Assembly (NCBI GenBank): GCA_021813745.1
Contig: JAKAJO010000134.1
Coordinates: 62,001-126,000 of the forward strand
Direction of reading: 5' to 3'
Length of the DNA: 64,000 nucleotides
Source of the DNA: Acidobacteriota bacterium
Lineage (GTDB): Bacteria; Acidobacteriota; Terriglobia; Terriglobales; Acidobacteriaceae
Shown: piece after piece, positions 27,945 through 33,144 of the stretch
Layout of the letters: every line of letters starts with the position of its first letter
Numbering within the stretch: the stretch's first letter is position 1
Program-made: the position numbers and the translations under genes
Notes under the pieces: generated by a model
Seen by the model: the letters and a program-made list of their open reading frames with translations, nothing else
What the model was told of the DNA's origin: nothing
Database searches by the model: none

Positions 27945-29222
27945 ATGATGCTGAAGGATTGGTATGCGCGGTGGATGTATGCGTGGGAGACACGCCTGAC
28001 CACCCGCGATGAGAACCGCGTCGTACGCCCGCTGGAGTGGGGCTTTGAGTGGATCGAGCCATTTCTCAGTGCGCATGGACATACCGCCGTACTCCCCGGC
28101 GCAGAGGTGTTGCACAATGATGCGGCTGCGGAAGCCGCCATGGTTCGCATCAATCAACTCCTTATCCGACACAGCGATCAGTTTTTTGGCTACAAGAAGC
28201 CGACAGATTTCCATCTGGAAGAGCGTCATCCGGAGCTGTATCCCACCAACGTGCGGCCCGAGACGCTTGCGAAAGATGCTGAGATTAAGCGGCGGGCGGC
28301 GGAAGGCCGGTCGAAGCCTGCGCAGTTTCTGCGCTTCACTTCACCGGAGCGGACGCCTTACCCAGAGAATGATCAGGTGAATGCGCGATGGTATCCGGCT
28401 CCCGCACACAAGGATCCTGACCGGCCTCAACAGGCCATCATTGTGCTGCCGCAGTGGAATGCTGATGCCTTCAGCCACAACGCGCTGTGCACGATCTTCA
28501 ACCGCATGGGTATCTCGGCCCTGCGTCTCTCCAAGCCTTATCACGACATTCGCAGGCCAGCCGAACTGGAGCGATCTGATTATGCTGTGAGCGCTAACAT
28601 TGGCCGCACACTTTCCGCCTGCCGGCAGGCGGTGGTTGATATTCGCTGCTGCGTGGACTGGCTTGAAGAGCAGGGCTACGAGCACTTCGGTGTGCTGGGA
28701 ACCAGTCTGGGCTCCTGCTACGCATTCCTCGCCAGCATGCACGATCCGCGGCTGCGCGTGAATGCCTTCAATCATGCTTCGACTTCATTTGGCGATGTCG
28801 TTTGGGCAGGGCAGAGCACGCGGCATATCCGCAAGGCTATTGAAGATGCGGGGCTCACGCAGGAGCGGTTACGCGAGCTGTGGTCGGCCATCAGTCCGGT
28901 GAGCTACTTCGATCGAATCATGTCGGCGGCATCCGGCGGGCGGGATAAAAGCGCTCTGCTGGTCTACGCCGAGTATGACCTGACATTTCCGAAAAAATAC
29001 TCCTTGCAGGTCGTGGAGGGCTTCCGCCAGGTAGGCTTCAACTTCGAGCCCCGCGTACTTCCCTGTGGCCATTACACAACGGGCGAAACTCCCTACAAAT
29101 ACATTGACGGCTGGTATATGGGCTCATTTGTGTATCGTGCCTTCAAGGCTCTGCGCCAGCAGAGGGTTGAGCGCTCCGTTGTTTCCCGCCAGGAAGCCGA
29201 AGAAGAGGTTGGAGTTCGTTAG
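27945..29222 (+). CDS. Alpha/beta hydrolase of ABHD18-like type
   Basis: A 425-residue hydrolase-fold protein. The nucleophile elbow GVLGTSLGSCYAFLA (Gly-x-Ser-x-Gly form GTSLG, about residue 250) follows a long N-terminal region containing IIVLPQWNADAFSHNALCTIFNRMGISALRLSKPYHD. After it come an Asp-type strand (ALLVYAEYDLTFP) and a late His in VLPCGHYTTGETPYKY, which would complete a Ser-Asp-His triad. There is no signal peptide, so it is probably cytoplasmic; the substrate is unknown. It is convergent with the pseudokinase gene (stop codons only six bases apart), so there is no room for a separate terminator. Confidence 0.75.
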   Translation: MMLKDWYARWMYAWETRLTTRDENRVVRPLEWGFEWIEPFLSAHGHTAVLPGAEVLHNDAAAEAAMVRINQLLIRHSDQFFGYKKPTDFHLEERHPELYPTNVRPETLAKDAEIKRRAAEGRSKPAQFLRFTSPERTPYPENDQVNARWYPAPAHKDPDRPQQAIIVLPQWNADAFSHNALCTIFNRMGISALRLSKPYHDIRRPAELERSDYAVSANIGRTLSACRQAVVDIRCCVDWLEEQGYEHFGVLGTSLGSCYAFLASMHDPRLRVNAFNHASTSFGDVVWAGQSTRHIRKAIEDAGLTQERLRELWSAISPVSYFDRIMSAASGGRDKSALLVYAEYDLTFPKKYSLQVVEGFRQVGFNFEPRVLPCGHYTTGETPYKYIDGWYMGSFVYRAFKALRQQRVERSVVSRQEAEEEVGVR

Positions 29223-29228
29223 AGCAAT

Positions 29229-30611
29229 TTACATCGCAAGCTTCGCGGGAACGATCTCAATGCCGCTTGGGCGATAAAGAAAATGCAGAAGCCATGCACT
29301 GCCTTCCGCTGCGGGCTTAAAGCGCCATTGTTGTGCCGCCTGCACAGAGATGCGCGAGAAGTATTTGCTTGGACCCGGCGAAACCAGCGTTGCAGCGATC
29401 ACATGCCCCGCTGCATCCACGGTGATCCTTACTGATACCGCCACTTTGCCCCGAATCGAAGCCATTGCGGCGGGCAACACCTCCGGCATGCTACGCCGCA
29501 ACACATCGCCCGCGGTTGCGCCAGATTCCATTCGCGCAGGAACCCCTTGTTGATCGTTGGCGCTGGCCGATGACGGGACCTGTCCTGGGCTGGAGTGCAT
29601 GCCGGTCACTGGTGCGGCCAGGGTCTGCTTCTGCTGCTGGGATGGAGCCACAGTCTCGGATTGCGATGCATGTCGAGGACGCATGTGCAGCACAGTGATG
29701 ACCGCGAGAAGGAGCGCGACCAGAGCCACGAATCCTTGCAGCACCCGTTGTGATGTCCATAGACGGTTGGGCGCTGCCTGCTTCGTGACGGGAGCGAGCG
29801 ATGATGAACGTGGTGTCTCCTGCACCTCTGCTTTGCCTTCGAGCCAGCTCTGTGCCTGGTGCAGGCTGCAGCGCAGTGCAGGCGTGGGATGAAGGCAGGC
29901 ACGCGCAATGCGGGCGAAAGGCTCCGGAATCGAAGAAGGAACCGCTGGCGCTGGCTGCGTTGCACGCTTCCAGACAGGGGGCGCCTGCGACATCGCTTCC
30001 ACGATGGTAGCGCCGAGCGACCAGAGGTCGGATGCGAAAGAAACACCCTCGGTTGCAACCTCAGGTGCCACGCTGGCGGATTCGGTTTCCGGAAAGCGCA
30101 CCATCGAGCCGGCGGGGCAGACCGTGTCCGATGAGATTTTCAGGTGATCATCCGCGACGAGTATGTTGGACGGCTTGAGTCTCGAATGCACGAAGCCGCG
30201 CGCATGAAGCGCAGCGAGCCCGTCCATGACCGGGCCAAGCATGGCGCGGGTCTCGTCGATGGTGAGGGCGCGTTCGGGAAGGATGGACGAGAGTACCTCT
30301 TCGGCGTACTCCATCACGACATAACGCAGCGCGACCCCATCCATTTCGCAAGATCCACGATCCAGGGTGCGCAAAAGATGCGGATGATCCAGTCCCTCTT
30401 GTATCCCTGCAAGAGGGGGCTCTCTCTCGGACCCCGTCGCATTGTCCCATGTCAGTTTGATGGCTGCTCTTTGCGAGGGATCACCCTGAAGTTCTGTCAG
30501 AAAAACGCTGCTGTGCGGAGACCCTCCGAGCCACGCTTTGAGAGGGTATCGACCCAGGACAATGCGGCCGATCCAATCATCGTGCCTGACAGCATTCATG
30601 CCGAGAATCAT
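29229..30611 (-). CDS. Kinase-like (degenerate) domain fused to TonB C-terminal domain
   Basis: A 460-residue protein with three parts. Residues about 15-262 are a Ser/Thr-kinase fold: VAIK-type Lys52 (AAIKLTW), VVMEYAEE hinge, catalytic-loop equivalent VHSRLKPSN (141-149), activation-segment APE (182-184) and SFASDLWSLGATIVEAM. The catalytic Asp of HRD is Arg144 and the DFG motif reads SDT, so it looks like a pseudokinase. One membrane helix follows (about 292-309), then a Ser/Gln/Pro-rich linker and a TonB-type domain (about 385-455, GKVAVSVRITVDAAGHVIAATLVSPG...AAQQWRFKPA). The kinase-like part would be cytoplasmic and the TonB part periplasmic. It is the third gene of a tight minus-strand cluster, 36 bases behind the M23 gene. 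Confidence 0.85.
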   Translation of the reverse strand: MILGMNAVRHDDWIGRIVLGRYPLKAWLGGSPHSSVFLTELQGDPSQRAAIKLTWDNATGSEREPPLAGIQEGLDHPHLLRTLDRGSCEMDGVALRYVVMEYAEEVLSSILPERALTIDETRAMLGPVMDGLAALHARGFVHSRLKPSNILVADDHLKISSDTVCPAGSMVRFPETESASVAPEVATEGVSFASDLWSLGATIVEAMSQAPPVWKRATQPAPAVPSSIPEPFARIARACLHPTPALRCSLHQAQSWLEGKAEVQETPRSSSLAPVTKQAAPNRLWTSQRVLQGFVALVALLLAVITVLHMRPRHASQSETVAPSQQQKQTLAAPVTGMHSSPGQVPSSASANDQQGVPARMESGATAGDVLRRSMPEVLPAAMASIRGKVAVSVRITVDAAGHVIAATLVSPGPSKYFSRISVQAAQQWRFKPAAEGSAWLLHFLYRPSGIEIVPAKLAM

Positions 30612-30647
30612 ACTCTGGACGCGTCTCTGCGGCCAGCGTGTGGCGAG

Positions 30648-31556
30648 CTATTGGAGCGCCCCGAGCTGAAGCTGCAACAGCTTGGCTGGATCGAGATATG
30701 CGTCTTCCCAACGCACAGCCCAATGCAGGTGCGGACCCGTGACGCGGCCAGTGGCTCCGCTGAGCCCAAGCAACTGGCCTTTCTGAACTCTCTGTCCCTC
30801 GCGCACGCGAATGCGGCTCAGATGCATGGAGATCGTAAAGAGACCCATGCCGTGATCCAGAATGACGCAGCTGCCTTCGTAATAAAGGGGTCTCGCCAGA
30901 ACAACGATGCCGGCATTGTCTGCGACGACAGGGGTTCCGGGGCGTGCACGGAAATCTAGTCCCTTATGGATGCTTGCCAGTTTGCCATCAAAGATGCGGC
31001 GCGTACCAAAGCTGTCGGTGGAGGCGGCACGCACGGGAGCCTGAAAGCTGCCGCGCCAGAGTCTTTCAGGAGCGCTCTTGGTGAAGAGACTCGCCTTCAG
31101 TTGCTTTTCTGCAGCAATGCGTCGCAGCGCGGCAGTGCCCGGCGCAACATAACGTGGCGCAACAGTTAGTGTACTTGTGCGGTAGTGCGCGGGCTCGATG
31201 AGAACACTCTGACTGAGATCAATTCTGGCAGAGCCTGCCGTGAGTTCAATCTCCAAGCGCGAAGGGCCGGTGGGCGCTTCCACGTCGACTCCGGCGAGAG
31301 CAAATTGGGCGCCGTCAGCGGGGCCGCGGAAGAACTCCAGCTTGTGCCCCAGCCACTCCCCTTGCAGGGTTGCGCCCCGGGGCGCAACCACACGAATGAG
31401 TTCCGGGGATCCGGCTTCAACGACAGAAGGTGTCAGTGTGACCGTTGGCGAAGTTGCTGCCGGCGCGGCACTGGCTATCGCGCAACACCAGGCTGCAAGC
31501 AGACTGCGGTAAAACGACGAAAAGCCGGTCATGCGTTCAGCATACCGGCTTCTCAT
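30648..31556 (-). CDS. Secreted M23 (LytM-type) peptidase
   Basis: A 302-residue exported zinc endopeptidase, or a relative that activates amidases, acting on peptidoglycan cross-links. A hydrophobic signal region lies near 15-32 (SLLAAWCCAIASAAPAA). After a beta-rich N-part, the catalytic domain shows FGTRRIFDGKLASIHKGLDFRA (His197 and Asp201 of HxxxD), SCVILDHGMGLFTISMHLSRI and TGPHLHWAVRW (HxH, His276/His278). All metal and catalytic positions are intact, so activity is expected. The start may instead be the ATG at 31532. It follows the repeat-protein gene by 22 bases and precedes the pseudokinase-TonB gene by 36. Confidence 0.9.
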   Translation of the reverse strand: MRSRYAERMTGFSSFYRSLLAAWCCAIASAAPAATSPTVTLTPSVVEAGSPELIRVVAPRGATLQGEWLGHKLEFFRGPADGAQFALAGVDVEAPTGPSRLEIELTAGSARIDLSQSVLIEPAHYRTSTLTVAPRYVAPGTAALRRIAAEKQLKASLFTKSAPERLWRGSFQAPVRAASTDSFGTRRIFDGKLASIHKGLDFRARPGTPVVADNAGIVVLARPLYYEGSCVILDHGMGLFTISMHLSRIRVREGQRVQKGQLLGLSGATGRVTGPHLHWAVRWEDAYLDPAKLLQLQLGALQ

Positions 31557-31578
31557 CCGATCGCAGGCGAGTCACGCC

Positions 31579-32190
31579 TCAGTGGCGCTGCCTGGCAGCG
31601 TTGTGCTTCTGCCGATAGATTTGACGGCTGGCGCCATTCTGGCGGCGATTGATATTCTGCCGCTCCTGCTGCGTCAGGCGCCCACCGTTGGCAGCGCGGT
31701 CTGCGGCGATGCTGCGGTTGATGTTCTGCTGCCGGCCCTCGGCGCGCGAGGCTTCACCGGCCGTCATCTGCCCGCTGCGAATGCCTTGTGCAATGCGATC
31801 CTGCTGGTTCTCCCGGCGCTGGCCAATTTCATTGTTGCCAAAGTGAGCCTGCGCTGCGTTGTGTTTGTCCTGGTAGATGCTGCGACTCAGGTTGTTCTGG
31901 CGGCGATCGATATTCTGCCGCTCCTGCTGCGTAAGCTTGCCGCCGTTCGCGGTGCGGTCCGCGTGGATCTGCTGGTTCAGGTTGGCTTCGCGGTTTTCGA
32001 GATTCTTGGTTTCGCCTGCGGTCAACTGGCCAGACTGCACGCCGTTTGCGATGCGATCCTGCTGGTTCTCGCGGCGGTTCCCGACTGTGTTCGGTGAGGC
32101 GCTGGGTGTCGGAGCAGGTTGCGCCTGCTGGGCGAAGGCCGGGACCGAAGCGGCCATGGCAACCACGAGCAAAAGAGATACCTTGGTCAT
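31579..32190 (-). CDS. Exported protein with two ~81-residue tandem repeats
   Basis: A 203-residue protein with a clean signal peptide (TKVSLLLVVAMAASVPAFAQ). Residues 34-114 and 120-200 are near-copies 86 residues apart: both start RRENQQDRIA.G..SGQ.TAGE and end NGG.LTQQERQNI.RRQN..SR.IY..KHNA. Within each copy the two halves also look alike (NG...LT..E...L..R), so it may have arisen from a unit of about 31-35 residues by two doublings. It is helical, charged and Gln/Asn/Arg-rich. I know this repeat from other soil bacteria but no function for it. GGAGG lies five bases before the ATG. It is the first gene of the M23/pseudokinase cluster. Confidence 0.8.
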   Translation of the reverse strand: MTKVSLLLVVAMAASVPAFAQQAQPAPTPSASPNTVGNRRENQQDRIANGVQSGQLTAGETKNLENREANLNQQIHADRTANGGKLTQQERQNIDRRQNNLSRSIYQDKHNAAQAHFGNNEIGQRRENQQDRIAQGIRSGQMTAGEASRAEGRQQNINRSIAADRAANGGRLTQQERQNINRRQNGASRQIYRQKHNAARQRH

Positions 32191-32343
32191 GCAAACCTCC
32201 AAAAATCGATCAGTTGTTTTGTGTGGGCTCTTCAACCCATGGCAATCTTAACCCCGGGTTTGACAAGAAAGTTGCGCGGGCTCAAAATTTCGGTGCATGC
32301 GCTTCTTTCCCGCGCTCTCGTTGCGCATCGCTCCAGACTCGAT

Positions 32344-33144
32344 ATGAGTGGACTCACTTCCTCTTCCGCGGCAGCCGCACAGCGGGCCGCCAGGCTCATG
32401 CTGATTGCGAGCCTTGCCGTCGGATCATCTTTTGGACAGGCTGCATCGAATCAGCCCGCGCACCGTCAACCTGTACTCGTGGAACTGTTTACCTCCGAAG
32501 GTTGTTCGGACTGTCCGCCGGCGGACGCGCTGCTGGCGCGACTCGACCGCGAGCAGTTCGTTCCGGATGCGGAGGCCATCGTGCTGAGCGAGCACGTGAC
32601 CTACTGGAATCATGAGGGATGGCGCGATCCCTTTTCCATGCCAGAGATCGACGAGCGGCAGCGGAGCTACGTCTACCGCTTCGGCTTGCAGGATAGCTAC
32701 ACGCCGCAGGCGGTGGTGGATGGATCTTTGCAGCTGGTCGGTAACAACGCTAACGCTCTGACGCAGGCCGTTGAACAGGCTGCGAGGCAGCCGAAAGAGT
32801 CTCTGACAATCGAGAATGCGCACTGGGTGAATGGGGGCGTGGATTTTTCAGTCCATGTTCAGCCCGAAAGTGGCGCAAAACTCGAAGCCGCTCTGGCACA
32901 GGATGCCACGCATCGCGAGGTGACGGGTGGCGAAAATGCGGGCCGTACCTTGCAGCATGTGGCAGTTGTGCGCGCAATGAAGGACTTCAGCACCAAGGCC
33001 CTCGACGGACGCACGCTGCGGCTTGCCGCTACGGATCTGTCTCAGAGCAATGACGCCAGGGGGCCACTGCGTCTGGTGGTCTTTGTCGCCGACCGCAAAT
33101 CAGGACACATCCTCGCAGTGGCGGGACAGACGCTGACTCCCTGA
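32344..33144 (+). CDS. DUF1223 secreted thioredoxin-like protein
   Basis: About 266 residues with a signal peptide (LMLIASLAVGSSFGQA). The mature part starts with the DUF1223 signature RQPVLVELFTSEGCSDCPPADALLARL, a thioredoxin-fold strand with a CxxC (Cys-Ser-Asp-Cys). LSEHVTYWNHEGWRDPFSMPEIDERQRSY and YTPQAVVDGSLQLVGNN are also diagnostic. Some family members are described as redox or methylamine-related, but the role here is unknown. The start is the ATG at 32344; longer in-frame starts lie inside the divergent spacer. It is divergent from the repeat-protein gene. Confidence 0.88.
   Translation: MSGLTSSSAAAAQRAARLMLIASLAVGSSFGQAASNQPAHRQPVLVELFTSEGCSDCPPADALLARLDREQFVPDAEAIVLSEHVTYWNHEGWRDPFSMPEIDERQRSYVYRFGLQDSYTPQAVVDGSLQLVGNNANALTQAVEQAARQPKESLTIENAHWVNGGVDFSVHVQPESGAKLEAALAQDATHREVTGGENAGRTLQHVAVVRAMKDFSTKALDGRTLRLAATDLSQSNDARGPLRLVVFVADRKSGHILAVAGQTLTP

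Follow-up and report, generated by a model that had tools for sequence, protein, structure and literature searches.

The PASTA kinases PknB/Stk1 combine a kinase, one helix and a C-terminal part that faces the envelope, and PknB is an active kinase with PASTA repeats. A review of bacterial pseudokinases describes, in the sections cited here, seven bacterial families that consist wholly or largely of pseudokinases, the term covering kinase folds in which the beta3 Lys, the HRD Asp and/or the DFG Asp has been lost (PMC12599244). According to the same sections, the DYD pseudokinases of actinobacteria and firmicutes carry a beta3 Arg and a DYD motif, and the Asp of their DFG region has been proposed to pair with the beta3 residue and so make up for the lost alphaC Glu; a like compensation with other residues has been reported for POMK (PMC12599244).

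Here we examine an acidobacterial protein of 460 aa in which a dead kinase fold is joined by a single membrane helix to a TonB C-terminal domain, together with its relatives. As the DYD pseudokinases are described in those sections, the family resembles them in being membrane-associated, in lacking the alphaC Glu, and in having the catalytic-loop Asn and an Asp in the DFG region. Unlike them, it mostly has a beta3 Lys (51 of 54 relatives) and S/A/T-D-x at the DFG site, its Asp comes one residue sooner, there is no HRD Asp, and the domain joined to the kinase part is TonB_C. MviN (ActPs3 family) is likewise a transmembrane protein with a dead kinase domain, which recruits a partner of envelope biology; this domain differs in that its three motifs are all degraded, ATP binding is reported to be absent and a TonB domain goes unmentioned in those sections (PMC12599244). 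By the descriptions given there, GLW proteins read GLW at the HRD site and have a bulky hydrophobic residue at the position of the beta3 Lys, where this family has H-x-R/H and Lys; DLHK proteins keep the HRD Asp and have no membrane segment, as against an Asp in 0/55 relatives and a hydrophobic segment in 56/56 proteins (window and relatives) here. This segment also separates the family from CP1, which is described with a COG3899 domain and no membrane segment. ActPs2 proteins have a beta3 Arg, an Asn for the HRD Asp and a DFG deletion; here the beta3 residue is the Lys already mentioned, Arg or His replaces the Asp in 53/55 and the DFG position is present in 55/55. These descriptions set the family apart from the DYD, GLW, DLHK, CP1 and ActPs2 pseudokinases.

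With TonB of E. coli (1xx3, 2gsk) and P. aeruginosa (6i97) the protein shares the fold of the C-terminal domain; unlike those TonBs, it has a pseudokinase part of 287 residues before the helix, and no His is seen in the helix. It is like PknB/Stk1 in the order of kinase part, one helix and envelope-facing C-terminal part, and unlike the active, PASTA-bearing PknB in these two features. A word search of the review's main text (PMC12599244) found neither TonB nor Acidobacteri, and one of a paper on TonB/TolA evolution (PMC12204202) found neither kinase nor acidobacteri. Judged by title, the open-literature matches listed, a scope that excludes subscription papers, include no description of a kinase-TonB fusion of this kind.

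Architecture of the fusion protein

The window, that is the whole stretch of 64,000 nucleotides analysed, belongs to a genome of 4.6 Mb in 136 contigs (G000, contig C20), and among named records Acidobacteriaceae MAGs give the best matches. The original prediction drew attention to three minus-strand genes spaced by 22 and 36 bases, a layout that the ORFs reproduce with the start codons used there. These genes, their plus-strand neighbour and the parts of the fusion protein are the following:

27945..29222, plus strand: alpha/beta-hydrolase-like gene (Pfam ABHD18 20.4 bits, cut-off 21)
29229..30611, minus strand: pseudokinase-TonB fusion, 460 aa (ORF, Pfam, alignment, AlphaFold)
29232..29510, minus strand: TonB C-terminal domain of the fusion, residues 368-460 (Pfam, NCBIfam, fold match)
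29511..29684, minus strand: linker, residues 310-367, pLDDT mostly low (AlphaFold)
29685..29750, minus strand: transmembrane helix, residues 288-309 (AlphaFold, hydrophobicity window)
29838..30569, minus strand: pseudokinase domain, about residues 15-258 (Pfam, alignment, AlphaFold)
30648..31556, minus strand: M23 peptidase-family protein, 302 aa, with metal-site motifs; a neighbour judged to lie outside the system
31579..32190, minus strand: two-repeat protein, 203 aa; a neighbour that adjoins the M23 gene in part of the genus

The kinase part of the 460-aa protein matches Pfam Pkinase at 6.8e-19. Its C-terminal part exceeds the cut-offs of both Pfam TonB_C (24.9 bits, cut-off 24.6) and NCBIfam tonB_Cterm (32.5, cut-off 27.1), and NCBIfam PknB_PASTA gives 45.1 bits against a cut-off of 450. 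The AlphaFold model places a single helix (residues 288-309) between two confident domains; the proposed order of kinase fold, one membrane helix and TonB C-terminal domain is thus upheld by Pfam, NCBIfam and AlphaFold. In the kinase part, a proper alphaC helix is absent from the model and confidence is low near residues 60-70. Lys52 (beta3) and Asn149 are retained. As originally read, Arg144 (VHSRLKPSN) stands in place of the HRD Asp and SDT (161-163) in place of DFG, with Ser161 replacing the Asp and a displaced Asp162 following it. The TonB_C domain has the TonB fold and corresponds to receptor-bound TonB structures; across the family, TonB_C is matched in 48/49 members at E 0.01. The linker measures 44-134 residues in 52 sequences (median 65.5), with a median of 16% Pro.

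Of the two neighbouring proteins, the 302-aa one matches Pfam M23 at 7e-29 and contains HKGLD and HLH motifs. The 203-aa one consists of two 78-residue units with 68% identity to each other, and reaches no cut-off in Pfam or NCBIfam. Both were judged by eye, from their N-termini, to be putatively exported.

Catalytic residues among relatives

Relatives were taken from 39 loci of a genome contig search and from loci of 60 related genomes, and the 55 with unbroken frames were aligned. Excluded were four of the 39 loci with broken frames (L033, L037, L046, L047), L053 and L056 (on contigs judged by length to be those of L009 and L010), the contig-end fragments L071 and L073, and the other kinases L072 and L074-L077. 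Alignment A1 holds the window protein and 48 of the 55 relatives; the 52-row sets used for the tree, the residue table and the linker further omit L030, L031, L040 and L044. In the four broken loci the reading frame is split, through decay or assembly error.

The HRD Asp position is occupied in the 55 relatives by Arg (29), His (24), Cys (1) or Gly (1), and the DFG Asp position by Ser (24), Ala (13), Thr (10) or others; neither position has Asp in any of them. The catalytic-loop Asn is retained in 51/55, as is the beta3 Lys at the frequency given above, and an Asp stands at the DFG Phe position in 53/55, which gives the family a motif set of H-x-R/H, Asn and K-L-x-x-D. The G-loop is degraded, its glycines 2 and 3 being mostly Ser. 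Three active kinases from the same genome, co-aligned, have HRD and DFG intact. With the SPOR-like proteins described below included, the HRD Asp is absent from 65/65 pseudokinase rows and Asp162 is present in 63/65. In 16 control kinases the HRD Asp is present in 16/16 and the DFG Asp in 13/16 in the aligned column, the remaining three (L074, L076, L077) having a DFG in their own sequence that is misaligned in that column. Kinase-domain trees (quick method) separate the pseudokinases from the 16 active kinases with SH-aLRT 100; since the root of the tree is not known, this is a split and not a proven clade.

Homologues that keep HRD and DFG would have spoken for a sequencing error at Arg144 and SDT, as the original prediction had recognised. 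The same losses are common to all aligned homologues, which rules out such an error and identifies a conserved pseudokinase family, in the sense of the review's definition. The reading of a dead kinase fused to TonB is therefore strengthened, the fusion itself being conserved.

The window copy lacks Trp68, which is found in 54/54 relatives that have a residue there, and its end branch amounts to about 0.8 changes per column. Judged from these features of its sequence, it is a derived member of the family.

Distribution and the SPOR-like branch

Within the genus, 21/35 genomes contain a relative at E 1.5e-53 or better, and two further ones (G012, G030) contain fragments at contig ends. In the family, a match at 1e-40 is present in 31/80 genomes, the window's own among them: 29 score >=394 bits, with catalytic residues checked in part, and two score near 145 bits. 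These two end like the SPOR type (L181 scores 20.7 against the SPOR cut-off of 21; L185 has no Pfam SPOR row). In the class, 16/81 genomes match at 1e-40, nine of them at >=507 bits, four SPOR-like and three odd, the last being L178 and L180 (TonB_C below cut-off) and L186 (TonB half only). These counts are lower bounds, up to 20 candidates having been scored per genome. In the phylum at least 4/396 genomes match at 1e-60, with up to four candidates scored per genome, so that this figure is no test of absence. Of the contig-search loci, 38/39 are labelled acidobacterial; L031 is labelled Xanthobacteraceae and is perhaps a misbinned contig. Among plasmids, 62 records have partial matches, all below 60% identity and none over 80% of the query, and the eight listed as best of the 62 fall on the kinase part.

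Nine related pseudokinases (L139, L141, L142, L143 and L181-L185), partly in near-complete genomes, end in a SPOR-like domain: five over the Pfam SPOR cut-off, three below it and one with no SPOR row. These counts leave out the G007 copy (L093), which contains a run of N. The type occurs in 4/60 relatives. All nine lack the HRD Asp and have Asp162, and in eight the beta3 Lys is replaced by Arg; only two of the nine reach the Pfam Pkinase cut-off, so the branch is more degenerate. Its rows form one group (SH-aLRT 100) on a long branch that sits among TonB-type rows with weak support, so that it may be either the sister group of the TonB type or an offshoot of that type. Elsewhere, two adjacent pseudokinase genes were observed at L179:1012-3731, the second of 616 aa with a C-terminal part of a different type, in which Cys residues and a hydrophobic stretch are seen by eye.

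Genomic neighbourhood

The closeness of the three genes makes an operon a tempting reading, which the comparison of neighbourhoods corrected. Close M23 orthologues (57-67% identity) are present in 18/22 other same-genus genomes searched, and in none of these 18 loci does a pseudokinase gene lie beside the M23 gene (flanks to 1.5 kb per side, less at contig ends). The M23 gene is instead convergent with the orthologue of the hydrolase-like gene, at most 120 bases apart, in 13 of the 18 loci; the distance is within about 800 bases in two further ones, and the hydrolase orthologue was not seen near M23 in three, one of them near a contig end. In the genus the two genes thus usually converge (hydrolase > < M23); the window differs by having the pseudokinase gene between them. 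The repeat gene adjoins M23 in four of the 18 loci, and lies past a DUF1223 gene in one. Thirteen of the 18 M23-bearing genomes have the pseudokinase elsewhere, 44 kb off in the case of G002. The best match to the window's pseudokinase, in G026 (L095), has the same hydrolase junction, with other genes between it and the M23 gene about 1.7 kb away. By eye, a MerR-like gene and mercury-transport-like ORFs occupy the stretch L095:11139-12600 between them.

Of the loci compared, only the window has all three genes directly adjacent; in G026 they share a neighbourhood. The operon reading is rejected on this lack of co-conserved adjacency, and the proposed link of the pseudokinase-TonB arm to the M23 enzyme or the repeat protein is not supported. 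A pattern scan of 29100-32450 found no promoter- or terminator-like site on the minus strand; since it is blank even upstream of the first gene, it is uninformative on co-transcription, either way.

More widely, the pseudokinase gene lies in 41 contexts across 68 loci at the thresholds used, a count inflated by short contigs. Broken and fragmentary loci are counted among the 68, as is one of the SPOR-like type; the window is not. ORF clustering within 7 kb found no neighbour common to the whole family, so genomic context supports no pathway. Each partner found is confined to one group, for example a convergent gene, RNA methyltransferase-like by eye, at 10/68 loci; apart from the pseudokinase cluster, the four largest clusters consist of ORFs on the opposite strand, most of them overlapping the pseudokinase gene. 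Large ORFs that look by eye like TonB receptors occur within 7 kb at 8/68 loci (L088, L089, L090, L099, L100, L104, L110, L114), in mixed orientation; no claim is built on this count. No ExbD-like ORF was found in the flanks of the 68 loci; the three ExbD matches of the window's genome fall on two contigs other than the window's, one of which carries the genome's own TonB close by.

Discussion

The alignments and the model show a kinase fold whose predicted catalytic base and metal-binding Asp have been lost in every aligned relative and whose pocket residues are kept, followed by a hydrophobic helix, a flexible linker and a TonB-type C-terminal domain. We give an even chance to the reading that the protein acts on its own, as a pseudokinase scaffold that spans the membrane and docks through its TonB domain on a partner in the envelope; the M23 and repeat genes would then be neighbours by accident. 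The kinase fold would lie in the cytoplasm and, as a scaffold, would bind a nucleotide or a protein but transfer no phosphate. The degraded G-loop, the lack of a proper alphaC helix and the low confidence around residues 60-70 make nucleotide binding doubtful. The TonB domain would lie in the periplasm and would dock most probably on a peptide of the TonB-box type in an outer-membrane protein, and this docking would alter where the pseudokinase sits or how it is assembled. By analogy with the DYD proteins and POMK, the role of the absent alphaC Glu may be taken by Asp162, paired with the beta3 Lys or Arg. Joint loss of the two residues would fit a pairing of Lys52 with Asp162 and is seen in L064, but L067 is without Asp162 only, and such cases are too few to bear the pairing out.

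The position of the TonB domain is taken in nine related proteins by a SPOR-like domain, and SPOR domains bind denuded glycan. It is conceivable, though we hold it improbable, that the TonB domain is similarly a peptidoglycan or general envelope anchor that merely positions the pseudokinase scaffold; the domain nevertheless has a TonB fold that matches receptor-bound TonB. The same fold, the length and Pro content of the linker and the three ExbD matches elsewhere in the genome would suit an energised TonB, with the helix coupling to ExbB/ExbD and pulling an outer-membrane receptor under regulation by the pseudokinase. An SHLS motif with an essential His has been described for motor binding in the portion of PMC12204202 cited here, and a His occurs in the best hydrophobic window of 0/56 proteins; the helix of the genome's own ExbD-adjacent TonB, a weak control, also has no His by eye, so that the lack of His is not decisive. 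The absence of ExbD-like ORFs beside the 68 loci also counts against an energised TonB, although E. coli tonB is unlinked to its motor genes and linkage is not strictly required. Energised action is less likely, and we consider it unlikely on the whole.

The kinase fold might have acquired another activity, such as AMPylation, glutamylation or phosphotransfer through a displaced metal ligand. Asp162, Asn149 and Lys52 are mostly retained, and new activities have been reported for SelO and SidJ in the cited sections of PMC12599244; the catalytic Asp is nevertheless absent from every one of the 65 rows, the second and third G-loop glycines are mostly Ser and Arg replaces the beta3 Lys in most of the SPOR-like branch, which leaves such an activity distinctly improbable. 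As to the operon first proposed, in which the three genes work together and the kinase-TonB arm controls the M23 enzyme, a common strand and short gaps speak for it. We regard it as very unlikely, given that the pseudokinase gene is not seen beside M23 in the 18 other genomes (flanks of up to 1.5 kb), that M23 usually adjoins the hydrolase gene and that other genes separate the two in G026.

Returning to the stand-alone scaffold, the occurrence of TonB or SPOR-like heads on the same dead kinase and helix suggests a cytoplasmic scaffold combined with an envelope-reading part. A broader and decidedly speculative reading would see in these proteins a class of outer-membrane-to-cytoplasm signalling in Acidobacteriota: dead-kinase scaffolds with exchangeable periplasmic reading heads, loaded receptors being read at their TonB boxes by the TonB domain and denuded glycan by the SPOR-like domain. 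Such proteins would need no ExbB/ExbD energy, and the displaced Asp would hold their pocket. What the family adds, namely a defined set of motifs, a topology in the membrane and a docking fold already known, makes its function directly testable. Should receptors be read by the TonB domain with no motor involved, this would be a new use of TonB.
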